A stretch of DNA of 64,000 nucleotides, taken from the NCBI GenBank assembly GCA_903875045.1, contig CAIQUS010000031.1:1-64000 (forward strand), given 5' to 3'. A program made the translations under genes and the position numbers. This document shows, piece after piece, positions 22,417 to 44,958 of this stretch (position 1 is the stretch's first letter; every line of letters starts with the position of its first letter). This stretch comes from an uncultured Bacteroidales bacterium. GTDB taxonomy: Bacteria; Bacteroidota; Bacteroidia; Bacteroidales; FEN-979. The notes under the pieces were generated by a model, which worked only from the letters and a program-made list of their open reading frames with translations, did not search any database and was not told the origin of the DNA.

Positions 22417-22420
22417 TTTT

Positions 22421-24268
22421 ATGCACCGACTGACGCTTTACATTTTATTGCTCTGCCCTCTTATTAATTTTTCACAGGAAATCACCCTCGACCGGGTTGA
22501 ACCGCCATTCTGGTGGACAGGATTCAAAAATCCTGATTTGCAATTGCTTGTTTACGGAAAAAATATTGCATTAACAACGGTATCAGTTAGTTATCCGGGT
22601 TTCGTCCTGAAAAAAGTGAACAAAGTTGAAAACCCCAATTACCTTTTTCTGGATCTGACAATCAGCCATAACGCAAAACCGGGTATTGCAACCATTCTGT
22701 TTAAAATAAAAGATAAAGAAACCGCAAAATATCTTTATGAATTGAACCCCCGCAAAAAAGGATCGGCCCAACGGAAAAGCTTCACTTCCCATGATATCAT
22801 ATACCTGCTGATGCCCGACCGGTTTTCAAATGGGGATGCGGCCAACGACTTAGCCACTTTCATGGCCGAGCAGGTTAACCGCTCAAATCAGGATGGTCGC
22901 CATGGTGGCGACATTAAAGGCATCATGAACCATCTTGATTATTTTCAGGATCTGGGCGTAACCACTTTATGGATCAATCCCCTGCTTGAAAATAATATTG
23001 CCAAATATTCCTACCATGGATATTCCACCACCGATTATTACAAGATCGATCCCAGGTTCGGCACCAACGAAGACTATGTAAAGCTGAGTGAGTCCCTTCA
23101 TCAGCGGGGCATGAAACTCATTAAAGACATGATCTTCAACCACTGCGGCATCGGTAATTGGTGGATGAAGGATTTACCATCAAGCGACTGGGTTAACCAG
23201 TGGCCGGAATTTACACGCACCAATTATCGTGCAGGCACTTTTACAGATCCTTATGCTTCACAGTCAGACAGCAACATGTTTGTGCGCGGATGGTTTGACA
23301 TCACCATGCCCGACCTGAACCAGGCCAATCCTTATGTTAAAAATTATCTCATCCAGAACAGCATCTGGTGGGTTGAATATGCCGGACTGGATGGCATCAG
23401 ACAGGATACCCACCCATATCCGTTCAAGGAAATGATGGCTGAGTGGGGAAAACGACTGCAAACAGAATATCCCGACTTCAATGTGGTTGGAGAATGCTGG
23501 CTGAATTATCCGGCATCGGTAGCTTACTGGCAAAAAGGTTCGAAAAATAAAGACGGATATGATTCCTGGCTACCTACCGTTTTTGACTTTCCATTGTATG
23601 ATGCACTTAACAAAGCCTTCAGCGAACCTGAAGGGTGGAATACAGGCATCGTGAGGCTTTATGAAATCCTTGCCCAGGATTTTTCTTATCCCGACCCGAA
23701 TAACATCGTGGTGTTTGCCGATAATCATGATGTGAACCGCTACCTCGATTCACAAAAAGATGATGTTTGGAAACTTAAAATGGCTATGGCATATATTCTT
23801 ACAACCAGAGGTATTCCCGAAATCTATTACGGAACTGAAATTCTGATGACATCAGGCCCCGACAAATCGGGAGACGGCAGCAAGCGTAAAGATTTTCCGG
23901 GCGGCTGGGCAGGCGATTCACGGAATGCATTCACTGCACAGGGACGAACAGAAGCGGAAAATGACATGTACAATTATCTGAGTAAACTTATTCACTGGCG
24001 GAATGCAAATGAGGTGGTTCATACCGGCAAATTCAGACATTTCATTCCGGCTGATGGTATTTATGTTTATTTCAGATACAACGATCAATCAACGGTTATG
24101 GTTGTGATGAACAACAATGAAGAGACAAAAACAATCGAAACCAAACGATACAACGAATTTCTGAAAAGGTTTAAATCAGGCACGGAAATCATCTCAGGAA
24201 ATTCGTTAAATGATCTGTCAAAACTGACTATCCCTGGAAAATCAACGCTGATCATCCAACTTAAATGA
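22421..24268 (+). CDS. Periplasmic neopullulanase/cyclomaltodextrinase, SusA-like GH13
   Basis: The protein has 615 residues and a signal peptide (MHRLTLYILLLCPLINFSQ). The N-terminal Ig-like domain (about residues 20-110: VEPPFWWTGFKNPDLQLLVYG) is characteristic of Bacteroidota SusA-type enzymes. The GH13 barrel contains IIYLLMPDRFSNGD, GYSTTDYYKIDPRFGT and IKDMIFNHCG. Catalytic residues are D329 in GIRQDTHPY, E358 in VGECWL and D437 in FADNHDVNR. SusA in Bacteroides is a periplasmic neopullulanase that cuts imported maltooligosaccharides to smaller sugars. Here it sits 4 bp after malQ in the starch operon. There is no lipobox, so a soluble periplasmic enzyme is expected. Confidence 0.92.
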   Translation: MHRLTLYILLLCPLINFSQEITLDRVEPPFWWTGFKNPDLQLLVYGKNIALTTVSVSYPGFVLKKVNKVENPNYLFLDLTISHNAKPGIATILFKIKDKETAKYLYELNPRKKGSAQRKSFTSHDIIYLLMPDRFSNGDAANDLATFMAEQVNRSNQDGRHGGDIKGIMNHLDYFQDLGVTTLWINPLLENNIAKYSYHGYSTTDYYKIDPRFGTNEDYVKLSESLHQRGMKLIKDMIFNHCGIGNWWMKDLPSSDWVNQWPEFTRTNYRAGTFTDPYASQSDSNMFVRGWFDITMPDLNQANPYVKNYLIQNSIWWVEYAGLDGIRQDTHPYPFKEMMAEWGKRLQTEYPDFNVVGECWLNYPASVAYWQKGSKNKDGYDSWLPTVFDFPLYDALNKAFSEPEGWNTGIVRLYEILAQDFSYPDPNNIVVFADNHDVNRYLDSQKDDVWKLKMAMAYILTTRGIPEIYYGTEILMTSGPDKSGDGSKRKDFPGGWAGDSRNAFTAQGRTEAENDMYNYLSKLIHWRNANEVVHTGKFRHFIPADGIYVYFRYNDQSTVMVVMNNNEETKTIETKRYNEFLKRFKSGTEIISGNSLNDLSKLTIPGKSTLIIQLK

Positions 24269-24278
24269 CCCCTTCACT

Positions 24279-24309
24279 AAATCGTAAATCGTAAATCGTA
24301 AATCGTAAT
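24279..24309. repeat. Heptanucleotide tandem array (TCGTAAA)4
   Basis: Four contiguous copies of TCGTAAA (the last TCGTAAT) fill most of the 50-bp gap between the SusA-like gene and the second transporter, inside an otherwise tight operon. Same unit and orientation as at 4347. Confidence 0.9.
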
Positions 24310-24318
24310 TCCCACTCT

Positions 24319-25614
24319 ATGTTAGCCATCCAAAAACGCCTCAGTAACATTTTTTACATCATCCTCGGCCTGCCAAGCACTGCCATGGGTTTTGCCCTGT
24401 CGATCCAGATTGCCGTATTAAGCTGGATTTTACGGACAAAGTACAACCTTGAAATTGACCAGATCGGTATTGTTTGGGCTGCCGGCCCCATTGCCGGTAT
24501 CCTGGGGCAACCCATCATCGGGTTGATCAGCGACAAAGCTTGGTTTTGGGGTGGACGACGTAAACCATTCATTATCATTGGCGGTATTTTGGCAGCCCTG
24601 ATGATTTTTGCACTGCCCAACATCGATAAAATCAGTAATTTTTTCGGCATTGCCAGCATCATGGCTGTTGCCGTTACGGTGGCACTCACACTCGACCTTT
24701 CCATCAACATCAGCTTCAACCCTACCCGTTCGATCATCGCGGATGTGACCCCCGATGGCCAGCCACGCACCAAAGGATATACCTGGATGCAATCCATCTC
24801 CAACCTTTTCGGAAGCGGGGCATACCTGATGGGCGCTTTGATCGGAAATTACTTCCTGATTTATGCCGGAGTGGTGATCGTGCTGATCTTCTCCATCGGT
24901 CCGCTTTTATTCATCGAAGAACCGCGTGAATTGGCCACCTCAGATAACAATGAGTCGTCAGGTGGGGCTGCTAAGAAAGGAAAAACCATCGATAAAACTG
25001 CTGCATCGCCAACACAATGGGGTGAACTGTTTAAACTCTACTTTGCCCATGGGTTTTCATGGCTGGGCATTCAAACCATGTTTGTTTACATGTTTGCCTT
25101 CCTGGAGCAAAAACTTCCTGCCATGCAGGACATGTCGGTGGCTGACCGTAATATGCGTCTCGGGCAGATGATCGGGTGGTCCTTCTTCATCCTCAATGCG
25201 GTTGGTGCGATCTGGCCAGCCTTTCTTCTGGAACCTTTGAGCAAACGGCTCGGGCGGGTGAGAACTCAATCACTCATGGTCGGAATCATGGCGCTGGGCT
25301 ATTTCGGTATTGTGATGCTGGCAACCAACACCTTTATGCTTTATACCATGATGTGCATCCTCACCTTCGGATGGGCGGCAGTTGTGAGCCTGCCATTCGC
25401 GATCATGTCAGAAAAAGTTGACAAAAGCAGGATGGGCTTTTTTATGGGAATTTTCAACCTGTCGGTGGTGTTGCCGCAACTTATTGCCAGTTCACTGGTA
25501 GGCACCATGATCAAAAATGCAAGCGACAAAGGGATTGTCTTCATCATCAGTGGAATTTCACTGGCTGTTTCTGCTGCACTCTGGCTGTTTGTCTCCGAAA
25601 AGAAAAAAGCCTGA
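24319..25614 (+). CDS. MFS transporter, SLC45/GPH-like (second copy in operon)
   Basis: The protein has 431 residues and twelve predicted transmembrane helices. It carries the same class signature as the carrier at 19507, here GLISDKAWFWGGRRKPFIII, and an N-terminus (LSNIFYIILGLPSTAMGFALSIQIAVLSWIL) of the same design. A hydrophilic central loop (about residues 200-235) is rich in Ser, Gly and Lys. It is a paralogue rather than a near-identical duplicate, so the two may differ in chain-length or sugar preference. It is the fourth gene of the starch operon, followed 10 bp later by the CBM48-esterase. Confidence 0.87.
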   Translation: MLAIQKRLSNIFYIILGLPSTAMGFALSIQIAVLSWILRTKYNLEIDQIGIVWAAGPIAGILGQPIIGLISDKAWFWGGRRKPFIIIGGILAALMIFALPNIDKISNFFGIASIMAVAVTVALTLDLSINISFNPTRSIIADVTPDGQPRTKGYTWMQSISNLFGSGAYLMGALIGNYFLIYAGVVIVLIFSIGPLLFIEEPRELATSDNNESSGGAAKKGKTIDKTAASPTQWGELFKLYFAHGFSWLGIQTMFVYMFAFLEQKLPAMQDMSVADRNMRLGQMIGWSFFILNAVGAIWPAFLLEPLSKRLGRVRTQSLMVGIMALGYFGIVMLATNTFMLYTMMCILTFGWAAVVSLPFAIMSEKVDKSRMGFFMGIFNLSVVLPQLIASSLVGTMIKNASDKGIVFIISGISLAVSAALWLFVSEKKKA

Positions 25615-25624
25615 AACTAATTGT

Positions 25625-27061
25625 ATGAAGGCGATTAAATTTTTCCTGCTTTGTATTTTTATAGCATCCGGTGGTTATCTGAAAGGCCAATCCTTTGCTC
25701 AATTCCTCGACCGGTTGAATTCATTGCCTGAAACCCAGCGGCAAGCTGTTGCCGACAGTTTTATGAATGCAGGCCATCCACTTCCGTTTACGGAGCAAGA
25801 CACCCTTGTGCATTTCGTGTACAATTCGTCTGCCCAATCGGTGGCAATGGCCGGTGATGCGACAGGCTGGAACCCAAATAAAATTTTCACCAACATCACA
25901 GGATCGAACTTCTGGTATTATTCCACCGTGTATGAAACGGATGCGCGGCTCGATTATAAGCTCGTCATCAATGGTTCCAATTGGATACTCGATCCAAAAA
26001 ATCCGAATACCTGCGCCGGAGGCTTCGGCCCCAATTCAGAACTGCGGATGCCAGGTTACGTGGTTCCTCCGGAGATCAGCTTTTACAGTCCCATTCCGCA
26101 TGGCACGCTCAGAGATACCACCTTTCACAGCAACATTCTGGGCAACAACCGCCAGGTGCGCATTTATCTTCCGCCCGGATATCCGTCAGGTAGTCAGGCC
26201 TATCCCGTTATTTTGTTTCATGATGGTTTGGATTACATCAATCTTTGCAATGCAAACAACATTTTAGACTATCTGATTTCCAAAAACCTCATGGTTCCGG
26301 TTATTGGGGTATTTGTGCCCGCGGTGGACCGTTCCGCTGAGTATGCAGGCAGTAAAATCGACAAGTTTACCGAATTCATCACCAGTGAGTTGATGCCTGT
26401 TATTGATGCAAAATACAAAACGAGCAAAGACCCTTCAAAACGAGCCATGGCCGGGGCCTCCGACGGGGGCAACATCTCGCTTTATATCGGCATGAAACAC
26501 CCGGAGATGTTTGGAAAAATTGCGGCACAATCCAGTGACGTCATTCCCGTCATCAGTGAAACCTTTGCCAACGGTCCAATGCTCAACCTGAAATTATACA
26601 TTGATATCGGCACGTACGACATTGGCATTTTGATTCCCATGGTACATGGTTTACGGGATATTCTGCAGTCAAAGGGTTATGATTACCAGTACCAGGAATG
26701 GCACGAGGGTCACAGCTGGGGCAACTGGCGGGGGCATCTGCGGTTACCGCTGTTGCAATTTTTCCCATGGTCGAGCGGGTTGAATGAAAACCGTCCGGAT
26801 GACAACCCCCATTTGATGCCAAACCGGCCAAACCCTTTCGAGGACCACACGCTGATTCCTTTTTCTGCGCCGGTCGGTTCAAAAATAGAACTCATGCTTT
26901 ATGACCTGTCGGGCAGAAAAGTTGAAACCATCTTTTGTGGTTCAGTATCTGCCAAAGACAATTCGATTGAATATTATCACAGACAGCCGTCCGGTCAATT
27001 TATCTTAACTCTGAAAGAAGATGATACGATCCGGGACAGCATGCTTATTCAGGCTTTATGA
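25625..27061 (+). CDS. T9SS-sorted esterase with N-terminal CBM48-like domain (CE1-type)
   Basis: The protein has 478 residues from the ATG at 25625, which is followed by a signal peptide (KAIKFFLLCIFIASGGYLKGQ); longer in-frame starts would overlap the transporter gene. Residues 65-150 form a CBM48-like module (VAMAGDATGWNPNKIF and LDYKLVINGSNWILDPKNP). The alpha/beta-hydrolase domain (about 165-385) has YPVILFHDGLDY, nucleophile S279 in AGASDGGNIS, and EGHSWGNW supplying the His. It resembles enterochelin-esterase-like/CE1 enzymes. The C-terminus (RPNPFEDHTLIPFSAP then LYDLSGRKVETI) is a type A sorting domain, so T9SS export is expected. An ester-cleaving enzyme acting on a glucan-bound substrate is inferred from the CBM48 and the operon; the real substrate is unknown. 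Confidence 0.82.
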   Translation: MKAIKFFLLCIFIASGGYLKGQSFAQFLDRLNSLPETQRQAVADSFMNAGHPLPFTEQDTLVHFVYNSSAQSVAMAGDATGWNPNKIFTNITGSNFWYYSTVYETDARLDYKLVINGSNWILDPKNPNTCAGGFGPNSELRMPGYVVPPEISFYSPIPHGTLRDTTFHSNILGNNRQVRIYLPPGYPSGSQAYPVILFHDGLDYINLCNANNILDYLISKNLMVPVIGVFVPAVDRSAEYAGSKIDKFTEFITSELMPVIDAKYKTSKDPSKRAMAGASDGGNISLYIGMKHPEMFGKIAAQSSDVIPVISETFANGPMLNLKLYIDIGTYDIGILIPMVHGLRDILQSKGYDYQYQEWHEGHSWGNWRGHLRLPLLQFFPWSSGLNENRPDDNPHLMPNRPNPFEDHTLIPFSAPVGSKIELMLYDLSGRKVETIFCGSVSAKDNSIEYYHRQPSGQFILTLKEDDTIRDSMLIQAL

Positions 27062-27089
27062 CCTTAAAAGCAAAAAAAATCAAAAAAAA

Positions 27090-29474
27090 ATGAAAATTAA
27101 AAATTTTTCCATCTTCGCAGCCGGCCTCTCAATGGCCTTATGGGGTTGTTCGTCAAACAATGACCTGCCTGTGGCGAAAGATCCCCAGATGATCAAACTT
27201 TCGGCACCGATCCTGATCAATGCCGATTCAACGGTTATTCAGCTTGCCGATTATCTTTTAAGACCAAATCAGATCGATTCACTTGAACTTGATCCGGACC
27301 TAACTGCTGCAATTTCAGCTGATTCGGTCCAGATGGTGATCAAACCTTTAAACAGGGATTTTCCAAAACTTTCCGTACTGAAAATATGGTCAAAAGGATT
27401 CTCCTATTCACTGCTCCTGGAAAAATCAACCAAGATGCGGTACCGTTACACTTTTGATCCAGGGAACAAAAAGTACAAGCGGGTACAGATCAAAGGCCAG
27501 ATGAATGAATGGAATGCCGCATCGGGCTACCTTTTTCAAAAAGATGGTAAATGGCACATCGACTTCCAGCTTTTCCCGGGCAAATACCAGTACAAACTGA
27601 TTATTGACGGCAAGGAAAAAACAGATCCGGGCAGCCGGGATTCTGTGAGCAACAACAATGGGGGATACAACTCGCTTCTCACCCTGGGGAATCTTAATCC
27701 CGCCGGATTACCTGGTTTATTTACCTCCATCGGCGACGGAAGAAAAATTGTGATCGGTGTGAAAAACAAGGCAGATTCAGTTTTTGTTTTCTGGCAGAAT
27801 TACCTCCTTGACCAGAAATTCTGGAAAAAAGACAGTGCCGGAATTACCATTGAAATACCTCGTAAAGCCAAAGAGTTTGATCGTAGTTTCATACGGGTGT
27901 GGGCATACAACACTACCGGGTTGTCAAACGAAATTCTTGTGCCTTTGCAGGATGGGAAAGTGCTGGCCGATCATAAAAAGCTGACACGTGCCGATCGTGA
28001 AGCGATGGTCATGTATTTCATCATGGTCGACCGGTTCAAAAACGGAAAACCGGAGAATGATGCCCCTGTCAAGGACAAAGACATTGACCCAAAAGTGAAT
28101 TATATGGGAGGCGACCTGGCAGGGATTACAAGGGCGATTGAAGACGGTTATTTCTCCAATCTTGGCGTTAACACCTTGTGGATATCACCTATTACACAAA
28201 ATCCGCTCATTGGCTATAATGAATATCCGGCGCCACACCGCAAGTTTTCAGGGTACCATGGTTATTGGCCAATCACCCTGACTACGGTGGATACGCGTTT
28301 CGGCAATGCCGATGAGTTCCATAAACTGGTCAGTGAGGCACACAGTAACAACATCAACATTATCCTCGATTTTGTTTCGCATCATGTGCACCAGGAATAC
28401 CCGGTTCTCAAAGCGCATCCCGACTGGATCACCCAGCTCGAACTTCCCGGGAACAGAAAAAACCTCAGGTTATGGGATGAACAAAGACTCACAACCTGGT
28501 TCGATGTATTCCTGCCAACCTTTGACCTTACCAAACCCGAAGTAGCCAACATGGTTTCCGACTCTGCCCTGTTCTGGATCAGGGAGTATAAAATTGACGG
28601 CATGCGCCACGATGCAGCCAAGCATGTTCCGGAGAACTATTGGAGAATGTTGACAAAAAAGTTAAATGAGCAGGTGATCATCCCTGAAAACCGGAATTTG
28701 TACCAGATTGGTGAGACTTTTGGCAGCCGTGATCTGATTGGAAGTTACATCAATCCCGGGATGATGGATGCCCAGTTTGAATTTAACCTTTACTGGGATG
28801 CCAAGAATACCTTTGCCATGGATAACACCTCTTTTCGCGATCTGAATTATTCGCTCCAACAGAGTTTCAGTTATTACGGAGAACATAACCTGATGGGCAA
28901 CATCACCGGGAACCAGGATATGCCGAGATTTATCTCATTTGCAAGCGGTGCGCTCAGTTTCAATGAGGATGCCGGGGAAGCCGGCTGGAAACGCGACATC
29001 CAGGTGAAGGATACCACAGGTTACCGGAAACTTGCATCGCTTGAAGCCTTTAATATGACCATTCCCGGCATCCCCATCATTTATTATGGAGATGAACAAG
29101 GCATGGCCGGCGCTGGCGATCCCGACAACCGCCGCATGATGAAGTTTGACAACCTCAATAAAAATGAGCAATACCTCAAGATCATCACAGGAAAACTGGC
29201 ACACCTCAGGAATTCCAATCTTGCATTGGTTTACGGGGATTTTACCGCACTAAAGGTGAACGAACGTGTTTATGTGTACCTGCGCTCCTATTTTGACAAA
29301 GCCGTGATTGTGATTTTCAACAAGGATAAATCGTCAAAGAAAATCGAATTCGACGTACCGGCCCGTTTCACTTCAGCCACTTTCATGGCACAATTTGGCA
29401 ATAAATTCACGATGGAAAAAGGAAAAGTAAACCTCGAACTTCTGGGGAATTCATTTGAAATATTATCAAATTAA
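27090..29474 (+). CDS. Alpha-amylase lipoprotein (GH13) with CBM48-like module
   Basis: The protein has 794 residues from the ATG at 27090, preceded by an A-rich leader. A lipoprotein signal ends at ALWGC, giving an acylated Cys followed by SSNND. Residues 110-205 form a CBM48-like fold (VQIKGQMNEWNA and FPGKYQYKLIIDG). The GH13 barrel starts near residue 300 (VMYFIMVDRFKNGKPEND) with the nucleophile D508 in GMRHDAAKH, E542 in IGETFGSRD and D610 in TGNQDMPRF. Its lipoprotein nature and place next to other sus-type genes suggest it plays the SusG role or a periplasmic equivalent. The post-Cys residues are not a strong surface-export signal, so orientation is uncertain. A start at 27021 would overlap the esterase and lack a signal peptide. 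Confidence 0.9.
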   Translation: MKIKNFSIFAAGLSMALWGCSSNNDLPVAKDPQMIKLSAPILINADSTVIQLADYLLRPNQIDSLELDPDLTAAISADSVQMVIKPLNRDFPKLSVLKIWSKGFSYSLLLEKSTKMRYRYTFDPGNKKYKRVQIKGQMNEWNAASGYLFQKDGKWHIDFQLFPGKYQYKLIIDGKEKTDPGSRDSVSNNNGGYNSLLTLGNLNPAGLPGLFTSIGDGRKIVIGVKNKADSVFVFWQNYLLDQKFWKKDSAGITIEIPRKAKEFDRSFIRVWAYNTTGLSNEILVPLQDGKVLADHKKLTRADREAMVMYFIMVDRFKNGKPENDAPVKDKDIDPKVNYMGGDLAGITRAIEDGYFSNLGVNTLWISPITQNPLIGYNEYPAPHRKFSGYHGYWPITLTTVDTRFGNADEFHKLVSEAHSNNINIILDFVSHHVHQEYPVLKAHPDWITQLELPGNRKNLRLWDEQRLTTWFDVFLPTFDLTKPEVANMVSDSALFWIREYKIDGMRHDAAKHVPENYWRMLTKKLNEQVIIPENRNLYQIGETFGSRDLIGSYINPGMMDAQFEFNLYWDAKNTFAMDNTSFRDLNYSLQQSFSYYGEHNLMGNITGNQDMPRFISFASGALSFNEDAGEAGWKRDIQVKDTTGYRKLASLEAFNMTIPGIPIIYYGDEQGMAGAGDPDNRRMMKFDNLNKNEQYLKIITGKLAHLRNSNLALVYGDFTALKVNERVYVYLRSYFDKAVIVIFNKDKSSKKIEFDVPARFTSATFMAQFGNKFTMEKGKVNLELLGNSFEILSN

Positions 29475-29494
29475 CTGATCAAAACGCGAAATAT

Positions 29495-30847
29495 ATGAAA
29501 ACACTTTCATTTCTGCTGTTTGGTGCAATCCTGGCATTAACCGGATGCAACCGGCCAGCCGCAACCGAAAACATGAGCCCTGCTGCCCACGTTAGCTGGA
29601 GCCGCAATGCCACCATTTATGAAGTGAATATCAGGCAATACACACCTCAGGGCACCTTCAAAGCTTTTGAACAGGAGTTGCCCCGGTTGCAAAAGATGGG
29701 TGTTGACATCCTGTGGCTGATGCCCATCAATCCTTTGGGGGTTAAAAATCGTAAGGGAAGCCTGGGTTCGTATTATTCTGTGAGCGATTATCTGGCGGTA
29801 AATCCTGAATACGGAACGAAGCAGGATTTCATTGATGTGGTCAAAAAAGCCCATGAACTCGGGATGAAGGTGATCATCGACTGGGTGGCCAATCACACCT
29901 CATGGGACAATAAACTGATTGAAAACCATCCCGATTGGTATAAAAAAGATTCTTCCGGAAAAATCGCACCACCTGTCCCCGATTGGTCCGATGTGGCTGC
30001 ACTTGATTTCAGTCAGCCAGCATTGCGGGAATACATGACAGATGCGCTGCTTTATTGGATCAAAGAGGCAGATATCGACGGCTATCGCTGCGATGTGGCA
30101 GGGATGCTTCCGGTCTCTTTCTGGAATGAGGCCATCCCTAAGTTGAAACAGGCCAAACCAGTGTTTATGCTTGCTGAGGAAGAAAAACCAAAAATGCATG
30201 ATACCGGTTATTTCGATGCAACCTACTCCTGGCAGCTTTACCATATTATGAATCAAATTGCTCAAAAGAAGAAAACTGCCGATAAAATTGACTCTTTGTT
30301 TGTCGTTGAAAACAAAGAATATCCAGCCGATGCCTTCAGGATGCGTTTTACTTCAAACCATGATGAAAATTCATGGAACGGCACCGAATATGAACGATTG
30401 GGAGAAGGTGCCCGTACTTTTGCTGTTCTCACTTTTACCTTCCCTGGTATTCCACTGGTTTACAGCGGACAGGAGTCGGCATTAAACAAGCGTTTGCGGT
30501 TTTTCGATAAAGACACTATTCCCTGGGGCGGTTACCCGCTTGAATCGTTCTATACCTCGCTGATGCAACTGAAAAAGAACAACAACCTGATTGCCAGCGG
30601 TGACAGCAGCGGACAATTTATCAAAGTTCCTACCAGCAACGATAAAGCAGTTTATGCGTTTCTTCGTAAAAAGGATGCCAAACAACTGTTTGTGATCCTC
30701 AATTTATCGGAAACTGACCAGACCCTGACATTAAACGGAAGCGATTTCGCCGGGAAATATAAAGAGCTTTTTACCGGACAAATCAGGGAGTTTACAGGCG
30801 GGGATAAAATAACCCTTTCGCCCTGGCAGTATCTGGTTTACGAATAA
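29495..30847 (+). CDS. Alpha-amylase family lipoprotein (GH13)
   Basis: The protein has 450 residues. The signal peptide ends in a lipobox (ALTGC). It is a compact GH13 enzyme without an extra binding domain: IYEVNIRQYTPQGTF opens the barrel, then WLMPINPLG, YYSVSDYLAVNPEYGT and VIIDWVANHTSWDN. The nucleophile is D200 in GYRCDVAGMLP, the acid/base E228 in MLAEEEKP and the third carboxylate D290 in SNHDENSW. It degrades alpha-1,4-glucans or maltooligosaccharides. Residues after the Cys (NRPAATE) lack the acidic surface-export signal, so the protein may face the periplasm. It is the last gene of the + strand starch run and converges with the MNT gene only 12 bp away. Confidence 0.9.
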   Translation: MKTLSFLLFGAILALTGCNRPAATENMSPAAHVSWSRNATIYEVNIRQYTPQGTFKAFEQELPRLQKMGVDILWLMPINPLGVKNRKGSLGSYYSVSDYLAVNPEYGTKQDFIDVVKKAHELGMKVIIDWVANHTSWDNKLIENHPDWYKKDSSGKIAPPVPDWSDVAALDFSQPALREYMTDALLYWIKEADIDGYRCDVAGMLPVSFWNEAIPKLKQAKPVFMLAEEEKPKMHDTGYFDATYSWQLYHIMNQIAQKKKTADKIDSLFVVENKEYPADAFRMRFTSNHDENSWNGTEYERLGEGARTFAVLTFTFPGIPLVYSGQESALNKRLRFFDKDTIPWGGYPLESFYTSLMQLKKNNNLIASGDSSGQFIKVPTSNDKAVYAFLRKKDAKQLFVILNLSETDQTLTLNGSDFAGKYKELFTGQIREFTGGDKITLSPWQYLVYE

Positions 30848-33139: not shown

Positions 33140-34204
33140 CTAGTTTTTCACCAGTTTGTATTTGTAAATCGGTTTACTCAGGTTGAGGGTAACGGTATAG
33201 TTTCCTGCACCATCCGGAACTGAGATATCGGCACCGCCTGGCTCAAGTGAGCCATCACCACCATTGTCGCCATAATTCAGATCCCAGCCTTTGTTGGCAC
33301 GGAATTTAATTTTGGCAGCTGTGAGGTTTACTGTAACAGTCCAGACTTTGTTTACGGCATCGTAGGCCATGTCAGTATCGGTATCCCATCCACCCGGTGT
33401 TGCATCACCAATCAGTCCCCAGGTAGTTTTCAAAAAAGTATGGGTCAGAGAAACCATATCAACATTGAGCTTATAATATCCGGCTTCTACAGCCTTGATA
33501 TTGGCTCCACCAGGCTCCAGGGAACCATTGGCACCATCATCGCCCCAATTGTTGTTCCAGTCACCTTTGGCATATTTGAACTCCGTATTGGCATCCGGAA
33601 AATTCATATAACCTTCGTAAAGATCGTTTGATCCAACCGATGCAATGGTGGTAAGGGAATCACCAGGGTTCCAGCCCTGATAACTGCCCGGCACGTTAAG
33701 TAACGGATAAACGATGGGAGCATAATAAGGTGTGATACTTTGCTGAACTGCAACAGAATAGACCGGTTTAATGGTATCAATGATATTTCCGTTGATATCC
33801 TTGACAATGGTCATGACCCTGAACTCCATCGGGAGTGCTTCAGGAACACTGGGGTCAAACAGCAACGGAAGAAGTTTACCATTGAGGTCGCTTGTCAGCA
33901 CCGAAAAGGTAAGCAGGGTATTCACAGCGCCCAAGGCGGTTGCATGAGAAAAATTATTGCCCTGTTTATCCATCTGAAGGGTGTAGGATGGTATAACCTG
34001 TGCGCCATAATTGGCAGCATTCCAGGTATACTTCAGGAGCACATTTTTATTGGCGGTATCAAGTACCAGGGCAGCCCCGCCCGGAACCGTCAACCCGGAT
34101 GGTGCACCCGGGGCGGATTTCAGAACGGCTTGGGTTTCGTCTTTCTTACATGACAGTAAGCTGAACAAACCAATGGCCAGTATTATTAATGATAGTTTTT
34201 TCAT
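33140..34204 (-). CDS. susE: SusE/SusF family surface starch-binding lipoprotein
   Basis: The protein has 354 residues. The lipobox FSLLSC is followed by KKDE, which fits the Bacteroidota surface-export rule of Lys plus two acidic residues close to the Cys. Residues 25-155 are a SusE N-terminal Ig-like domain (KYTWNAANYGAQVIPSYTLQMD). Two tandem starch-binding modules follow: one at about 166-258 (PGSYQGWNPGDSL, FKYAKGDWNNNWGDDG, LEPGGANIK) and one at about 260-354 (TTWGLIGDATPGGWDTD, KFRANKGWDLNYGDNG, SLEPGGADISV). SusE holds starch at the cell surface for the SusCD importer. It is 20 bp downstream of susD and is the last gene of the operon. The two modules are strikingly similar to the insertion in the neighbouring SusD. 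Confidence 0.92.
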   Translation of the reverse strand: MKKLSLIILAIGLFSLLSCKKDETQAVLKSAPGAPSGLTVPGGAALVLDTANKNVLLKYTWNAANYGAQVIPSYTLQMDKQGNNFSHATALGAVNTLLTFSVLTSDLNGKLLPLLFDPSVPEALPMEFRVMTIVKDINGNIIDTIKPVYSVAVQQSITPYYAPIVYPLLNVPGSYQGWNPGDSLTTIASVGSNDLYEGYMNFPDANTEFKYAKGDWNNNWGDDGANGSLEPGGANIKAVEAGYYKLNVDMVSLTHTFLKTTWGLIGDATPGGWDTDTDMAYDAVNKVWTVTVNLTAAKIKFRANKGWDLNYGDNGGDGSLEPGGADISVPDGAGNYTVTLNLSKPIYKYKLVKN

Positions 34205-34224: not shown

Positions 34225-36438
34225 TTAGTATCCAGTATTTTGTTTAAGATTGGGATTGGCTGTAACATCCGATGACGGAATTGGGAAGAGGTTATAATAG
34301 GAAGGTACTGACTGACCTTCTTTCGATCCCCCTTTCCAGGGCCATACATAAGATCCGTTACTGAACTGGCCAAAACGGATCAGGTCGGTTCTGCGGTACC
34401 CTTCCCAGTATAATTCACGGGCTCTTTCATCAAGGATAAATTCGAGGGTCAAGTCCGTTGATTGAATTTTACCACGCTCATCCTGGCTATAGGCGCGCAT
34501 ACGCAGGTCGTTGATCAGGTTGAGGGCAGTACCAAGGTCACCACCGCCACCGCCGCGTAAAACTGCTTCGGCGTACATCAGGTAGACATCAGCCAGGCGG
34601 AACATGGGGAAATCGGTATCAGGGAAAGTCAAACTACTTCCGGTGGTACTGTCACTCCTGAGGTTGGTGAATTTTGGCACAGCGTACCCTTCGGTAAAGG
34701 TGCCTATATCATTGATCTCAAGCGATTGTCCTGCTGAATAGAACATACGGCGGGTATCAACCAGCGGAGCCGGCGGAGGTGTGTTCAATTCAATTTTGTA
34801 TGTATAATCAGGGCTGCCAAGTTTCATGGTTACCTTATATTCGCCTGCAACAGGAATCGCAATATTGGCGCCACCTGCCTCAAGAATTCCATTGGCACCA
34901 TCATCACCATAATTAATATCCCATCCGCTGTTGGCACGGAATTTCACTTCTTTGCCTGCTCCACCGGCGAGGTCAATTACAATAGTCCACTCATCCGTGG
35001 TAGCATCGTAGGTCATTGGCTGGTCAGAATCCCATCCATTGGGAGTCGCAGATCCGATAATACCCCACGTCGTTTTCACAAGTGAAAAGGTGAGAGCAAC
35101 TGTATCAACATTGATTTTAAAATATCCGGCTTCCGGAACGCCAATGTCGGCACCGTTATGTTCAAGAACACCTGCAACACCACCCCAGTTAACATCCCAG
35201 TTTGGTTTTGCAGTGAATTTGAATTTTGCATCAGCGGCTAAGTTGATATATCCTTCATATTTCCCATCGCTGGCAACAGAACCAACTGTTTTGGCAGTGG
35301 GAGGATCCCAACCCTGATATGATCCCGGGCAATACAGTACCGGGTACGCACGGCTTTTACGAGGTGTGGGTGATGACCAGGGCATATCGCCCGGTACCGG
35401 AAATTTATTCACCAATGCGCTGGTGGTGCGTGTTCCGCCCCATCCGCCATCGATTCCGTAATTACCGGCAACCATGCTTCCGCCAACGGCTGCATGAATG
35501 ATAAAGGTGGTTCCGCCCCAGGTTTGTGATCTTGTTCCATCGAAGTTGACCATAAAAATTCCTTCTGAGGAAAGGTTGTTGTCGGCGGTAAAATTGTTCT
35601 TGTATTCAGGTTCGAGGCCATAACCATCGGCAATAACCTTGTTGCAATAGGTAATACATTCGGTATTTTTGGCTTGTCCGGTGTAAACCTCTGCATTCAG
35701 ATAAAGTTTGGCAAGAAGCGCTTGAACTGCACCTTTGCCGGCACGGCCATATTCGGCACCTTTTACACTTGTCATCAAAGGTTCGATGGCAAGAAGTTCG
35801 CTTTCAACATAGTTAAAAAGTTTATCACGGGTGATCCTGGTTGGGAAGAACTTTCCAACAGGATCATTTTCGGTTACGAAAGGCACGTTGCCAAACATAT
35901 CCAAAGCGTGATAGTAACTCAATGCTCTCAGGAAGCGGGCTTCTGCGCGATATTGCTCGATTTCAATTTTGCTTGCACCTGTAATTCCACGTGAACTTAA
36001 TTTATCCTCGGCAGATTCCCTGATAAATTCGTTGCAAACGCAAACCTGGTAAAAAATCCGGTAATACATTGCAGAAATAAACACATCGGAAGATCCCCAG
36101 CTTTGACCATGAAAGTTCTTGATCGTCTGGTCATTCCAGCCAATTACGGCTTCATCGGTGGTCAATTCCTGGTGATACCAGTAACCACGAATGTATTCGC
36201 TGAAACCCTCATCAATCCCTCTGATATCTGGTTTTCCGGCAGGGCCCTGCTGGCCTGTCATCGACAAACCTGCATATAATTTGGCTAATACCTGTTTGTA
36301 ACCGGCCTGGTCTTTATAAACGTTGGCAGCGTTCATGTCGTTCGGATCGATGGGCTGAGTATCCAGATCCTTGACACAGGAGGCAAAAAACACGCTTAAT
36401 GCCACCACCATGAATGTTATTTTGAATATTCGTTTCAT
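34225..36438 (-). CDS. susD: SusD family lipoprotein with two embedded SusE-type starch-binding modules
   Basis: The protein has 737 residues, against roughly 500-560 for usual SusD proteins. The lipobox is FFASC, followed by VKDLD. Residues 25-360 are the SusD/RagB helical domain (YKQVLAKLYAGLSM, RAEARFLRALSYYHALDMFG, AKLYLNAEVYTG). Residues 556-737 are its C-terminal part (RLADVYLMYAEAVLRGG, ERARELYWEGYRRTDLIRFG, NLFPIPSSDV). Between them, at about 364-555, sit two modules that match SusE: PGSYQGWDPPTAK...WDVNWGG...HNGADIGV, then TTWGIIGSATPNGWDSD...FRANSGWDINYGDDG...EAGGANIAI. SusD binds starch on top of SusC. The extra modules would add binding sites directly on the SusD lid. The frame is uninterrupted, so this is a true in-frame insertion. 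Confidence 0.93.
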   Translation of the reverse strand: MKRIFKITFMVVALSVFFASCVKDLDTQPIDPNDMNAANVYKDQAGYKQVLAKLYAGLSMTGQQGPAGKPDIRGIDEGFSEYIRGYWYHQELTTDEAVIGWNDQTIKNFHGQSWGSSDVFISAMYYRIFYQVCVCNEFIRESAEDKLSSRGITGASKIEIEQYRAEARFLRALSYYHALDMFGNVPFVTENDPVGKFFPTRITRDKLFNYVESELLAIEPLMTSVKGAEYGRAGKGAVQALLAKLYLNAEVYTGQAKNTECITYCNKVIADGYGLEPEYKNNFTADNNLSSEGIFMVNFDGTRSQTWGGTTFIIHAAVGGSMVAGNYGIDGGWGGTRTTSALVNKFPVPGDMPWSSPTPRKSRAYPVLYCPGSYQGWDPPTAKTVGSVASDGKYEGYINLAADAKFKFTAKPNWDVNWGGVAGVLEHNGADIGVPEAGYFKINVDTVALTFSLVKTTWGIIGSATPNGWDSDQPMTYDATTDEWTIVIDLAGGAGKEVKFRANSGWDINYGDDGANGILEAGGANIAIPVAGEYKVTMKLGSPDYTYKIELNTPPPAPLVDTRRMFYSAGQSLEINDIGTFTEGYAVPKFTNLRSDSTTGSSLTFPDTDFPMFRLADVYLMYAEAVLRGGGGGDLGTALNLINDLRMRAYSQDERGKIQSTDLTLEFILDERARELYWEGYRRTDLIRFGQFSNGSYVWPWKGGSKEGQSVPSYYNLFPIPSSDVTANPNLKQNTGY
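34774..35349 (-). other. Inserted two-module starch-binding segment inside susD
   Basis: This marks the roughly 192 codons of SusD with no counterpart in ordinary SusD proteins. They align along their full length with the C-terminal half of SusE (33143-33718). Shared landmarks in the same order are PGSYQGW, the NWG.DG turn, GGADI/GGANI, TTWG.IG.ATP.GWD and FRAN.GWD.NYGD.G. At DNA level the two segments are clearly related but diverged, so the copy is not recent. Confidence 0.88.
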
Positions 36439-36457: not shown

Positions 36458-39424
36458 TTACAGTGAAAGGTTTACACCCAGAACAAACACCCTTGAACGA
36501 GGATACACATTGTTGTCGATCCCTGAACTGATTTCAGGATCAAGTCCATTGTATTTGGTAATTGTGAAAACATTGTTCACGGTGAAAGACAGCCTGAGCC
36601 CACCAGTGTTTTTGATCACCTTTCCGAAATCATACGTTAAACTCAAATAGTCCATTTTGAAGTAGGAAGCGTTCTGGATATAATAATCTGACAAATATTG
36701 CGGATTGACGAAGTTTACGTCATACACATCTGATGTAATATTGCCAAGATACGGTCCTTCAGGACGATACAGGTTGGAATAAACTCCCCTGTTAGATGAA
36801 CCATTGTTATACATATAATTGCCAATAGCAGCATGACCGGCAGTAGCGAGTGTCAGCTTCTTAAAAGTCAAAGTCGAATACACACCAAACGTTGATGTGG
36901 GGTTCGGGCTTTTGTAATGATAGCGGTCGGCATCTGTAATTTTACCATCACTATTGCGGTCAACATACAAGCCTTCAATGGGTTTTCCGGCTTCATTATA
37001 AACCTGCTGGTAAACAAAGAATGAATTAACAGGCTGACCAACGCTATTGATCTGGATCGTGCTTCCAACACCACCGGCAATATTACCGGTAAAACTTCCA
37101 AGGTATGAAGGATCATCAATCGCAGTAAGTTTTGTAATTTTATTTGTATTGAAAGCCCCATTCACACCAATATCCCATTTCCAGTCCTTGGTTACAATGG
37201 CTTTGCCACTCAGGCTGAATTCAACACCCCTGTTCTCCATATCACCGATGTTTGTGATGATCCAGTTGGTTAGGTTGGTACCGGCAGGCACCTGGATTTC
37301 GTTGATAAGGTCATTGGTTTGGCGGATATAGTAATCGAGCGAACCGGTGATCCTGTCCTGCAGAAAACCGAGGTCAAGACCCACGTTAATGGTAGTGGTT
37401 GTTTCCCATTTGATATTGGCATCATATCCGTTGGGGCGCATCGTCCTCAGCCAGGTATTTCCAAACTCATACATGGAATATTTGTCGCTGATGGTGTAGA
37501 TTGGCAGATAAGGATACCAGTTATCCATAATGTCCTGCTGACCTGTTTTACCCCAACCCAACCGGAGTTTCAACTGTGAAAGCACCTTTGAATCCCTGAG
37601 GAATGCCTCCTCGTTGATTTTCCATGCGAAAGCAGCTGATGGGAAAAGGCCCCAGCGTGTGCTCTTCGAAAATTTTGAGGAACCGTCATCACGTAAAGTG
37701 AAGGTTAACAGATACCTGTTGGCAAGTGTGTAGTTTAAACGTCCGTAAAATGAAACCAGGTAATATTCTTTTTTTGACTGGATGGTATTTGCATGGACAG
37801 TATCGTGGGGTACATTATTATTATATGTATTATTTTCAACATAGAAATGTTGCCAGGAGTATCCAGCCATCACATCAAACTTACTCTTGATGCTCTTAAC
37901 TTCTTTTACATAGTTGAGGTAGAAATCGAGTACACTGTTCTTTTTGGTCTGATCATATTTATTGTCAAGCCCTTTGTCAATCCAGTTGCCGGTATAAGTT
38001 GTTGGCACTTTAATGGTTCCGTTGCTCTTGGTATAATCGAGTCCAAGGTTCAGGACGGCACGTAAATCAGGAAGGAAATGCAGTTTATAATCCAGCTGGG
38101 CATTTCCGAGGAAACGGTTAACAGTTGATTTGTCTTCACGGAGTTCAAGCATGGCAACCGGGTTGGCAGGTGCCTGGCTTACCGGTAAAGTATCGCCTGG
38201 TTGTAACCATGCCCAATATCCGCCAAATCTATTGTTGGCAGTAACCGGTTTTGTGGGGTCAAAATTGATAGCGGTTCCGATAGCACCCTGATTGGCAAAC
38301 CGGTTTTTCTCATTCATATATTTTGCATTCAGATTGACCTTCAGGTAGTTCTTGAAGAAGGTCGGATTGAGGTTGGCTCCAAAAGAGATCCGCTGCATGT
38401 TATCGGTTTTGATGGTTCCGTCCTGATAGGTGTATCCTACTGATACGCGATAGGGCATCGTGCTCACGGCGCCTGAGAATGCCAGGTTGTGGTCGGTGCT
38501 GATAGCCGAACGGAAAACCTCTTTCTGCCAGTCAGTGTTTGCTGTGCCAAGAAGTGAATCAACGCCTATGTTGTTTGGGTATCTTTTCAGAACCAATGCA
38601 CGAAACTCATCTCCGTTGAGGACTTTGGTCATCTTTGGAACAGTTCCGACAGAGACATTCCCTGAATAGTCCAAACCAAATTTCTTACTTCCTGCTGTTC
38701 CCTTTTTGGTGGTGATGAGGATAACCCCGTTGGAAGCGCGTGAACCGTAAATAGCTGTAGCCGAAGCATCTTTGAGTACCACATAGGTGGCAATGTCATC
38801 CGGATTTAACATACTGAGTGAACCACGGGCACCGGAAGTTCCGGCATTGTCGATGGGCACCCCGTCAACAACCACTAACGGGTCGTTGGAAGCATTGATA
38901 GAAGAACCACCCCTGATGCGGATAACAGCATCACCACCGGGTGTGCCCCCGAGGGTTGTAACCTGAACACCGGGAATTCTTCCGACAATGGCTTGTTGCG
39001 GTGAAGTGATACGGCCCTGGTTGAAATCTTTTTCCCCAAGAGTAGCAACCGAACCGGTAGCATCCTGACGTTTAACAGTACCATAACCGATAACGACCAA
39101 TTCATTCAGACTTTTCACGCCGGTAGCCAGTGAGATGTTTAAGCTGCCCTGGCCGGTATAGGTAACCTCCTGTGTGGCATAGCCAACATAAGAAAAAACC
39201 AATACATCATTCGCCTTTACCTTCAGGGAATATTTCCCGTCAATATCAGTTACAGCACCGGTAGTAGTGCCTTTAATAACAACCGTTGCTCCCGGAATAG
39301 AACTTCCGTCTGATGCATCTGTCACTATCCCTGTCAATGCAACCTCCTGTGCATAACCTACCGATGCCGCTGCAAAGGCAAGGAAGAGAACCAGATAACG
39401 CAACCATAGTACACGTTTCTTCAT
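36458..39424 (-). CDS. susC: SusC/RagA family TonB-linked outer-membrane importer
   Basis: The protein has 988 residues, normal for SusC. It has a signal peptide ending in GYAQ and a carboxypeptidase-regulatory-like domain at about residues 27-103 (GIVTDASDGSSIPGATVVIKG). The SusC-type TonB box region is LNELVVIGYGTVKRQDATGSV, and the plug domain contains IRIRGGSSINASNDPLVVVDG. A 22-strand-type barrel ends in the aromatic-poor tail VFVLGVNLSL. It imports maltooligosaccharides across the outer membrane using TonB energy, with SusD as lid. It is the first gene of susC-susD-susE, 19 bp before susD, and divergent from the GH127-esterase gene across a 672-bp repeat-rich region. Confidence 0.95.
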   Translation of the reverse strand: MKKRVLWLRYLVLFLAFAAASVGYAQEVALTGIVTDASDGSSIPGATVVIKGTTTGAVTDIDGKYSLKVKANDVLVFSYVGYATQEVTYTGQGSLNISLATGVKSLNELVVIGYGTVKRQDATGSVATLGEKDFNQGRITSPQQAIVGRIPGVQVTTLGGTPGGDAVIRIRGGSSINASNDPLVVVDGVPIDNAGTSGARGSLSMLNPDDIATYVVLKDASATAIYGSRASNGVILITTKKGTAGSKKFGLDYSGNVSVGTVPKMTKVLNGDEFRALVLKRYPNNIGVDSLLGTANTDWQKEVFRSAISTDHNLAFSGAVSTMPYRVSVGYTYQDGTIKTDNMQRISFGANLNPTFFKNYLKVNLNAKYMNEKNRFANQGAIGTAINFDPTKPVTANNRFGGYWAWLQPGDTLPVSQAPANPVAMLELREDKSTVNRFLGNAQLDYKLHFLPDLRAVLNLGLDYTKSNGTIKVPTTYTGNWIDKGLDNKYDQTKKNSVLDFYLNYVKEVKSIKSKFDVMAGYSWQHFYVENNTYNNNVPHDTVHANTIQSKKEYYLVSFYGRLNYTLANRYLLTFTLRDDGSSKFSKSTRWGLFPSAAFAWKINEEAFLRDSKVLSQLKLRLGWGKTGQQDIMDNWYPYLPIYTISDKYSMYEFGNTWLRTMRPNGYDANIKWETTTTINVGLDLGFLQDRITGSLDYYIRQTNDLINEIQVPAGTNLTNWIITNIGDMENRGVEFSLSGKAIVTKDWKWDIGVNGAFNTNKITKLTAIDDPSYLGSFTGNIAGGVGSTIQINSVGQPVNSFFVYQQVYNEAGKPIEGLYVDRNSDGKITDADRYHYKSPNPTSTFGVYSTLTFKKLTLATAGHAAIGNYMYNNGSSNRGVYSNLYRPEGPYLGNITSDVYDVNFVNPQYLSDYYIQNASYFKMDYLSLTYDFGKVIKNTGGLRLSFTVNNVFTITKYNGLDPEISSGIDNNVYPRSRVFVLGVNLSL

Positions 39425-43110: not shown

Positions 43111-44958
43111 ATGAAGCGTTTCATTCTTTTAGTCCAGATCGTTATCTGCTTTTATACCATGACAATAGCACAAAACAACAACCCGGGAATCAGCCAACCG
43201 CCAGCCTGGGCGAAACATGCCATCTGGTACCAGATTTTCGTTGAACGGTTTTACAATGGCGATAAAACCAATGACCCCAAACCGGGCAATATCAACATTC
43301 CTCCGCTGAAGGCAACAGCACCTCCGGGATGGAGCGTAACTCCATGGACAACCGACTGGTACAAAAAGGAAGACTGGGCATTGAAAACCGGCAAACCATT
43401 TAACGAAATGGTCCAGTTAAGGCGATTCGGAGGTGATTTACAGGGGGTCATTGACAAACTGGATTATCTTCAGGAATTAGGCATCACAGCTCTTTTCATG
43501 AACCCGTTGAATGATGCGCCATCGCTGCATAAATACGATGCCAGAAATTACCACCACATCGATGTCAATTTCGGCCCCGATCCGGATGGCGACAATAAAA
43601 TCATTGCTTCAGAAACCCCGAACGATCCGACTACATGGAAATGGACCTCAGCGGACAAACTTTTCCTGAAGCTGGTGAAGGAGGTGCACAAGCGGAAAAT
43701 GAAGATCATCATGGATTTTTCGTGGAACCATACCGGTGTGATGTTCTGGGCATGGCAGGATATTCTGAAAAACCAGGAAAAATCGATCTACAAAGAGTGG
43801 TACGCCATCAAAACTTTTGACAATCCTGCAACACCTGAAAATGAATTTTCATACACGGGCTGGGCCGGTGTTGACAACCTGCCGGAATTGAAAAAAGTGA
43901 ACATCACAACCAGGCGGGTAAGCGGATATCCTTATGAAGGTGATATCAATGAAGGTGCAAAACAGCATATTTTTGCAGTCACCAAACGATGGCTGGCCCC
44001 TGACGGGGATACTTCAAAAGGGATCGACGGATTCAGGCTTGATGTAGCCGACCAGATAGGGCTTGTCTTCTGGCGCGATTTCCGAAAATTCGTGCGCTCC
44101 ATTCAACCTGAGGCTTACCTCGTCGGGGAGATCTGGTGGGCAGAGTGGCCCGACAAACTGATGGACCCGGTGCCATACACCCAGGGCGATATTTTTGATG
44201 CTGTGATGTTTTACCAGGTGTATAAACCGGCGAGGTACTTCTTCGCGGCTAACAGCTTCGGCATAAATGCCGGGGATATGAAGGATAGCCTGGAGTATCA
44301 ATGGAACAGGATACCAACTGCCAACAGGTATGCCATGATGAATGTCTCGTCATCGCACGATGCGCCAAGGCTGCTCACCGATTTTTACAATCCGAACAAA
44401 TACAAATTCAAGGCGAGTCCGAATGATGATCCGGGGTATAAAACCGGCAAACCGGATAAAGAGACCTATCAACGATTGAAACTGTACCTCATGCATGAGT
44501 TTACAACCATCGGCGCCCCGCATGTATGGAATGGTGAAGAGATGGGGATGTGGGGTGCCGATGATCCGCATTGCAGGAAGCCGCTCTGGTGGAAAGAATA
44601 CACCTTTGACCCTGAGACAAGGAATAATTTTCAGCCGGGAGAAAAATCTTATGATCCGACAGGATTCAACCAGGATCAATTCGACTGGTATAAAAAACTC
44701 ATTCATATAAGGAAAGCCAACCCGGTATTGTCAAGCGGAAATATCAAATTTCTGGTCACTGAAGGTAAACGGCTTGCCTACAAAAGATTTGATGCTGACA
44801 ACGAAATACTGGTTGTTTTTAACCTGGAAAACAGCAAACAGACATTTCAATTTGAGAAAGGCTCAAACTATGCAGACTTGCTGACCAATGAAACCAAAAA
44901 AGGTGGAACGATCACCCTTGCCCCTTTAACGGGCGCCATATTAAAGAAAATTAAATAG
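43111..44958 (+). CDS. GH13 alpha-amylase / cyclomaltodextrinase-like enzyme
   Basis: The protein has 615 residues and a signal peptide (MKRFILLVQIVICFYTMTIAQ) without a lipobox. The GH13 barrel begins at residue 36 (AIWYQIFVERFYNGDKTND) and has no large N-terminal binding domain. Catalytic residues are D311 in GFRLDVADQIG, E340 in LVGEIWWAEWP and D417 in SSSHDAPRLL. Insertions rich in Trp and Pro (residues 60-95) and a DPDGDNKI loop, possibly calcium-binding, are present. It is probably a periplasmic or secreted enzyme acting on maltooligosaccharides or cyclodextrins. It lies between the GH127-esterase fusion (170 bp upstream, repeats between) and the GH2 gene (18 bp downstream). Confidence 0.9.
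   Translation: MKRFILLVQIVICFYTMTIAQNNNPGISQPPAWAKHAIWYQIFVERFYNGDKTNDPKPGNINIPPLKATAPPGWSVTPWTTDWYKKEDWALKTGKPFNEMVQLRRFGGDLQGVIDKLDYLQELGITALFMNPLNDAPSLHKYDARNYHHIDVNFGPDPDGDNKIIASETPNDPTTWKWTSADKLFLKLVKEVHKRKMKIIMDFSWNHTGVMFWAWQDILKNQEKSIYKEWYAIKTFDNPATPENEFSYTGWAGVDNLPELKKVNITTRRVSGYPYEGDINEGAKQHIFAVTKRWLAPDGDTSKGIDGFRLDVADQIGLVFWRDFRKFVRSIQPEAYLVGEIWWAEWPDKLMDPVPYTQGDIFDAVMFYQVYKPARYFFAANSFGINAGDMKDSLEYQWNRIPTANRYAMMNVSSSHDAPRLLTDFYNPNKYKFKASPNDDPGYKTGKPDKETYQRLKLYLMHEFTTIGAPHVWNGEEMGMWGADDPHCRKPLWWKEYTFDPETRNNFQPGEKSYDPTGFNQDQFDWYKKLIHIRKANPVLSSGNIKFLVTEGKRLAYKRFDADNEILVVFNLENSKQTFQFEKGSNYADLLTNETKKGGTITLAPLTGAILKKIK

Follow-up and report, generated by a model that had tools for sequence, protein, structure and literature searches.

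Two SusE/F-type modules inserted in a SusD-like import lid form a putative starch-holding arm in an uncultured Bacteroidales bacterium

Gene organization of the locus

The window, which is the whole stretch of 64,000 nucleotides analysed here, originates from an uncultured Bacteroidales bacterium and harbors susC, susD and susE genes that are consecutive on the minus strand and separated by intergenic gaps of about 20 bases. The susC gene (36458..39424), upstream of susD, encodes a TonB-dependent transporter (TIGR04056, 765.6 bits). The susD gene (34225..36438) is a single open reading frame with an ATG start and 737 codons plus stop; the frame, Pfam domains, PDB alignment and Cys21 identify its product as a lipoprotein lid of 737 amino acids with an inserted segment, here called the arm. 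The susE gene (33140..34204) encodes a polypeptide of 354 amino acids composed of a SusE N-domain and its own pair of modules of types T1 and T2 (33143-33715), as found from the frame, Pfam and a sequence comparison with the arm. This row is flanked by starch genes that include several GH13 amylases, GH77, an MFS transporter and esterases. On the plus strand, the region 20911..30847 encodes GH77, a cyclomaltodextrinase-like GH13 protein, the MFS transporter, an esterase and two more GH13 amylases (one with SusG_C), and a further GH13 amylase is encoded at 43111..44958.

The window also contains a 947-aa frame (40097-42940, plus strand) in which a GH127-type domain is fused to an esterase domain, and a gene for a 472-aa protein (31617-33035, minus strand) that adjoins susE. 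Inspection by eye showed that the latter shares the stretch WIT.NLGA...ASAGWY.QFNRKQGY with a large protein of 1325 residues encoded in the same genome (locus L169:2576-6553, minus strand). This large protein has fn3-like repeats and one T1+T2 pair, which is 44% identical to the SusD arm according to BLAST and for which Pfam does not list PF16411.

Domain architecture and predicted structure of the SusD protein

Membership of the SusD/RagB family is indicated by the domains of the protein (PF07980, 123.1 bits; PF14322, 39.3 bits; both above cut-off) and by the position of its gene directly adjoining susC. The lipid-anchor residue Cys21 is invariant across a 45-row alignment, the lipobox being judged by eye. 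The NCBIfam exception model for SusD, NF033071, gave 421.4 bits in two stretches versus the 725 bits required; judged from its sequence, the protein is a starch-type SusD relative and not the exact NF033071 protein. In the phmmer alignment with B. thetaiotaomicron SusD, its residues W98, Y296 and W320 are matched by W101, W307 and W333. Two of these three, W101 and W333, do not vary across the 45 rows, and W307 is absent from the list of invariant positions. We take W98, N101, Y296 and W320 to be starch contacts of the B. thetaiotaomicron protein; a literature search for mutants of the SusD starch site returned no paper.

In phmmer comparisons, the solved SusD 3jys aligned with residues 40-351 and 554-737, and 3ck7, the SusD of B. 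thetaiotaomicron, with residues 22-346 and 562-737; nothing aligned in between. Pfam reported SusD-like_3 (110-247), SusF_SusE (two stretches, the best at 460-554) and SusD_RagB (569-737). The first-pass annotation had placed an interruption of the SusD sequence at residues 364-555; the interruption is real, but it is slightly wider and covers about residues 349-560. It starts 16 residues past W333, the position aligned with W320. Along the minus strand, the gene encodes an N-core (residues 1-348, 35395..36438, from PDB alignment), an entry linker (residues 349-361, 35356..35394, with pLDDT below 50 at 349-351), module T1 (residues 362-456, 35071..35355), module T2 (residues 457-556, 34771..35070), an exit linker (residues 557-560, 34759..34770, assigned by exclusion) and a C-core (residues 561-737, 34228..34758, from PF07980 and PDB alignment). 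Both modules are beta-domains according to module profiles and AlphaFold2, with PF16411 as additional evidence for T2; T1 contains W377, W414 and K407, and T2 contains W469, W506, K499, R501 and N503. On the arm, PF16411 scored 55 bits in two stretches, versus a cut-off of 27.5. Residues 363-552 share 54% identity (E = 2.6e-56) with the C-terminal region of the SusE next door and the order of the modules is equal in both proteins, which confirms the match to the SusE modules reported earlier.

AlphaFold2, with an input of 45 sequences (34 two-module and 11 without module), modelled the full SusD with a mean pLDDT of 86.4 and a pTM of 0.73, as two beta-domains in addition to a core. The strands of the arm lie at 367-456 and 458-551, with a pLDDT of 82-96 in blocks of ten over residues 361-550. 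The pLDDT is below 50 at the hinge (349-351), and further weak spots at 63-79 and about 101-110 are part of the starch-site side. The model gives the folds of the domains and does not fix the pose of the arm on the core. When modelled alone, the arm reached a mean pLDDT of 96.4 and a pTM of 0.89. Foldseek matched the whole model to 3jys (TM 0.89 over the target) and to B. thetaiotaomicron SusD entries (0.79-0.83). For the arm only four matches had E < 0.001, i.e. SusF 4fe9 (5.8e-7), the X25-2 domain of Sca5 7rpy (7.1e-7), SusE with maltoheptaose 4fch (1.3e-5) and SusE with alpha-cyclodextrin 4fem (1.8e-5); the rmsd to the SusE and SusF structures was 6.5-7.5 over two domains, with a TM of 0.50-0.56 over the query. 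A sequence search of the arm against the PDB gave the dextran-binding BT3088 (SGBPdex) as the sole match and did not find SusE or SusF. That the arm is part of the SusD core is ruled out by the two-domain AlphaFold2 model and the Foldseek match of the core. The structure prediction proposed in the first-pass annotation thus returned two beta-domains apart from an intact SusD core, and its central claim of two SusE/F-type modules within such a core is what Pfam, the split PDB alignment, AlphaFold2 and Foldseek agree on.

Occurrence and layouts of the inserted modules

In unarmed relatives the insertion slot is a short loop between the GGWGG...KF and D.R..F..GQ..EI stretches; the loop as printed has 4 residues in L082 versus 7 in L085, L086, L089 and L091. 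In 102 insert-bearing and 63 insert-free SusDs, the N-core alignment reaches at least query residue 346 and the C-core alignment begins by residue 563, the outer limits being fixed by construction as the query was pre-cut at 351 and 557. This one loop variously holds no module, T1, T2, T1+T2 or T1+T2+T2. The three-module form is represented by the 860-aa SusDs of L078 (7941-10520) and L080, from Prolixibacteraceae and Mariniphaga bins. The genome of the window has five PF07980 matches, and only the window SusD carries the arm.

The insertion is widespread and patchy. Of the 43 genomes of the window's own family, 22 yielded a match (E of 1e-30 or lower); the insert is spanned in 19 of these (own genome included) and lacking in three. 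Named loci were retained for 80 out of 379 relatives, and the 79 that were classified comprise 46 two-module, 23 module-free, eight one-module and two three-module forms, with a bias of the scan to armed forms since two of the six peptide patterns fall in the arm. L084, which ends at a contig edge and holds T1, was left out of the core count. Class and phylum were each sampled with 395 genomes, in overlapping sets; two candidates per genome were scored and most others were called module-free from a frame length of at most 583 aa. By this procedure, modules were found in seven of the 77 class genomes with a match (own included; five T1+T2 and two T2-only) and in 14 of the 93 phylum genomes with a match (own included; three T1+T2, three T2-only and eight T1-only), a few truncated frames being unclassifiable and one 609-aa frame being without insert. 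In two 624-aa frames of these samples, L157 and L158, the arm slot is occupied by 81-83 unrelated residues, for which Pfam lists no domain in L158. The G378 SusD core is that of L102 (Aureibaculum marinum), so that the G378 family is presumably Flavobacteriaceae; among its 299 genomes, 100 match the L102 SusD at E up to 1e-80, of which 30 are T2-only and the remaining 70 were called from frames of 523-561 aa. In a further family from this phylum, f91, 21 out of 92 genomes have a match: 12 T1-only, eight without module and one fragment. With regard to the second refuting condition of the first-pass annotation, a standard domain long known from SusDs of this size, inserted modules are common in some starch SusD lineages, but they form the minority among the class and phylum genomes sampled.

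Most of these sequences come from metagenome bins, and the bin labels of L062 (Alphaproteobacteria) and L061 (Chlorobiota) look wrong, as might be expected if the fusion were an assembly or binning artefact. This explanation, to which we assign a negligible probability, is refuted by the spread of the insert: the two-module form is present in 46 of the 79 classified named loci, and the isolates Marinifilum caeruleilacunae and Aureibaculum marinum carry the two- and one-module forms, respectively.

The modules were also seen in other proteins. L112 (10788-12758) encodes a 657-aa SusE-like protein with a doubled pair (T1+T2+T1+T2) that adjoins an ordinary SusE, and L071 (11359-13155) encodes a protein of 599 aa in which five T2 modules are combined with a C-terminal sorting domain of the secretion-system type. 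A literature search of titles and abstract openings found no description of SusE/F modules inside SusD; such proteins may be recorded elsewhere.

Phylogeny and origin of the arm

A tree of SusD cores without the insert was built from 109 rows (the window, 79 named loci and 29 others). Module presence changes at least eight times on the tree found, and its well supported branches force five changes for the unarmed group. Grouping of the armed cores in one clade was rejected, both for cores with two or three modules (p = 3.6e-6) and for cores with any module (p = 1.1e-6). In a first tree of arms, 50 of the 51 SusD arms form one clade (support 99), with L074 outside. A second tree, without five long or divergent rows (SusE arms L069, L072, L076 and L112; SusD arm L077), separates all 50 SusD arms from 45 SusE arms, again with a support of 99 and with L073 and L074 on long branches. 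Scattered cores that carry arms of a single clade point to repeated loss, to lateral swapping of the insert, or to both.

The first-pass annotation had suggested an in-frame transfer between the window SusD and its neighbour SusE. That proposal is not supported, since pairing of the window's two arms was rejected in the reduced set of the second tree (p = 0.00016) and the SusD arms form their own clade; local copying from the SusE next door is rejected as the source of the SusD arm. The split between T1 and T2 precedes that between SusD and SusE (support 98, FastTree), which fits a pair that moved as a block, although rooting on the T1/T2 split gave two differing pictures in two random draws and the split was not clean in one of these. 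The direction of module transfer was likely from SusE to SusD, and derivation of the arm from a SusE-type tandem pair is a probable element of the reading that we favor as a whole.

L079, L082 and L083, the unarmed relatives nearest to the window, may have lost the arm: the free tree places them between armed rows (support 99 for a set of 20 rows) and the L082 loop is the shorter one noted above, but constraining the 17 armed rows to a single clade gave a slightly better tree (p = 0.558). The core of L061 (2675-4885) groups with the unarmed L085 and L088 (support 97), whereas its arm is found among window-type arms and its SusE in yet another group. From these sequences the L061 arm looks like one taken from another lineage, which is possible; that it is a copy of its own SusE was rejected (p = 0.00013), but placement of the L061 core inside the window clade was not rejected (p = 0.066).

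The T1, T2 and T1+T2 layouts might instead go back to separate acquisitions from SusE proteins, all of them in the one slot. This alternative is compatible with a function of the arm, and we give it somewhat less than an even chance. For all 12 T1-only and all 37 T2-only inserts, the closest score came from a SusE module and not from a two-module SusD arm, and the T1-only inserts form one clade (supports 99 and 98 in two trees). However, a single origin was not rejected in any of four tests (p = 0.057, 0.105, 0.337 and 0.639), the joined tree being even better in the last case; the T2-only inserts form one clade with nine rows (support 85) and need two changes with 30 rows; and the SusE likeness of the inserts is confounded by common lineage. 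These are quick trees on short modules, drawn as random subsets without modules below 30 bits or 70 residues: the T1 tree has 102 modules (12 of 12 T1-only, 30 of 51 two-module and 60 of 68 SusE) and the T2 tree 120 (30 of 37 T2-only, 25 of 50 two-module, and 25 of 53 plus 40 of 84 SusE). One T1 tree was made without five long SusE T1 rows, and the module profiles were made without seven arms (SusD L077, L073 and L074; SusE L112, L069, L072 and L076). Tentatively, and with similar reserve, SusD could be regarded as having a module socket beside its starch site that would have taken up SusE-type starch-binding modules on several independent occasions, with swaps from one lineage to another and an evolvable lid valency of zero to three that is matched to the starch eaten.

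Conservation and proposed function of the arm

In comparisons with five relatives, the two modules have a pN of 0.08-0.27 and a pS of 0.59-0.82, with saturated dS. W377 is kept in 47, W414 in 46, W469 in 49 and W506 in 49 of the 51 SusD arms, and R501 in all 51. Conservation of these tryptophans, and of a K-F-R-x-N strip, is similar in the 45 SusE arms, and we infer from the sequences that these residues contact the glucan. The low pN relative to pS and the kept tryptophans suggest that the arm has a function. A functionless insertion tolerated in a permissive loop would agree with the patchy presence of the arm, with the unrelated insert in the slot of L157 and L158, and with T1 changing faster than the core (in four comparisons, pN 0.25-0.27 versus 0.10-0.11 for the N-core and 0.13-0.21 for the C-core; roughly equal values in the fifth). 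With pN far below pS and the tryptophans kept in 46-49 of the 51 arms, we nevertheless consider this very improbable.

Downstream of susD, the 50 other two-module loci have a full T1+T2 SusE in 31 cases, such a SusE ending at a contig edge in one, a divergent SusE-like frame in nine, a frame without module match in one, and no gene or a contig edge in eight. As most two-module loci have a T1+T2 SusE directly downstream (32 of 50), the arm does not simply replace SusE. The idea of a self-contained lid, put forward in the first-pass annotation, is too strong in view of these loci and of the SusE with equal modules that adjoins the window SusD.

We consider it probable that the insert forms a starch-holding arm, hinged to the import lid in a surface loop near the starch site, with a putative binding role beside SusE rather than instead of it. 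The arm would reach outward from the SusD lid by its hinge and hold an alpha-glucan chain at one or two additional points. It would thereby keep the chain, or pieces cut by surface amylases, near the starch site of SusD and the entrance of SusC, and raise the lid's own avidity on top of that of SusE. The later history of the arm would include repeated losses and perhaps its exchange among SusDs. In the accessible text of the respective papers, SusD opens and closes on SusC according to a pedal-bin model (PMC7782687) and surface binding proteins behave as mobile grapples (PMC7618045); the arm would be a mobile grapple placed on a moving part, the SusD lid.

The same text describes complexes of such lipoproteins on SusC (PMC7618045), and the arm could mainly serve to dock SusD onto a partner such as SusE, SusC or a surface amylase, with glycan binding being secondary. 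However, what is conserved in the arm are the tryptophans and K-F-R-x-N strip common to SusE, and arms persist beside a divergent SusE in nine of the 50 two-module loci, which argues against a dock for a single kind of SusE. We regard a primary docking role as unlikely.

Comparison with known systems

B. thetaiotaomicron SusD (3ck7-3ckc) is similar to the window SusD in fold, in the place of its gene beside susC and in its aromatic starch-site positions, but it lacks modules and has about 47 unaligned residues of its own at the position of the arm. SusE and SusF of B. thetaiotaomicron (4fch, 4fem, 4fe9) share the module fold and the starch setting with the arm, whereas their modules sit on separate lipoproteins and those of the window inside the lid. 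The nearest precedent for the arm is the SusG alpha-amylase, which, according to the accessible parts of PMC7848910 and PMC11267923, has a starch-binding module, CBM58, inserted within the fold of a surface starch protein; SusG is an enzyme with one inserted module and the window SusD a lid with two. Xylanases of the Pm25/Xyn10C-like GH10 type carry one to three CBMs inside the catalytic fold, in numbers that vary among homologues (PMC7848910, same part), but these are xylan enzymes and not lids. The looped and open SusDs of North Sea Flavobacteriia are likewise variants of alpha-glucan SusDs, and one looped form was retarded by pullulan and glycogen in gels (PMC11093988, main text as accessible). 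The variation described in that text is a loop of about 17 residues, and no inserted module is mentioned there.

The accessible text of PMC7782687 asks why a SusD lid evolved if a surface binding protein can deliver the substrate. Lid and glycan-binding protein are separate in the systems of the compared papers, as far as their accessible text goes. Armed and unarmed SusDs that share one slot within single families form natural test pairs for the contribution of lid-borne binding. With lineages that hold none, one, two or three modules, these bacteria may tune the lid's own hold on starch.
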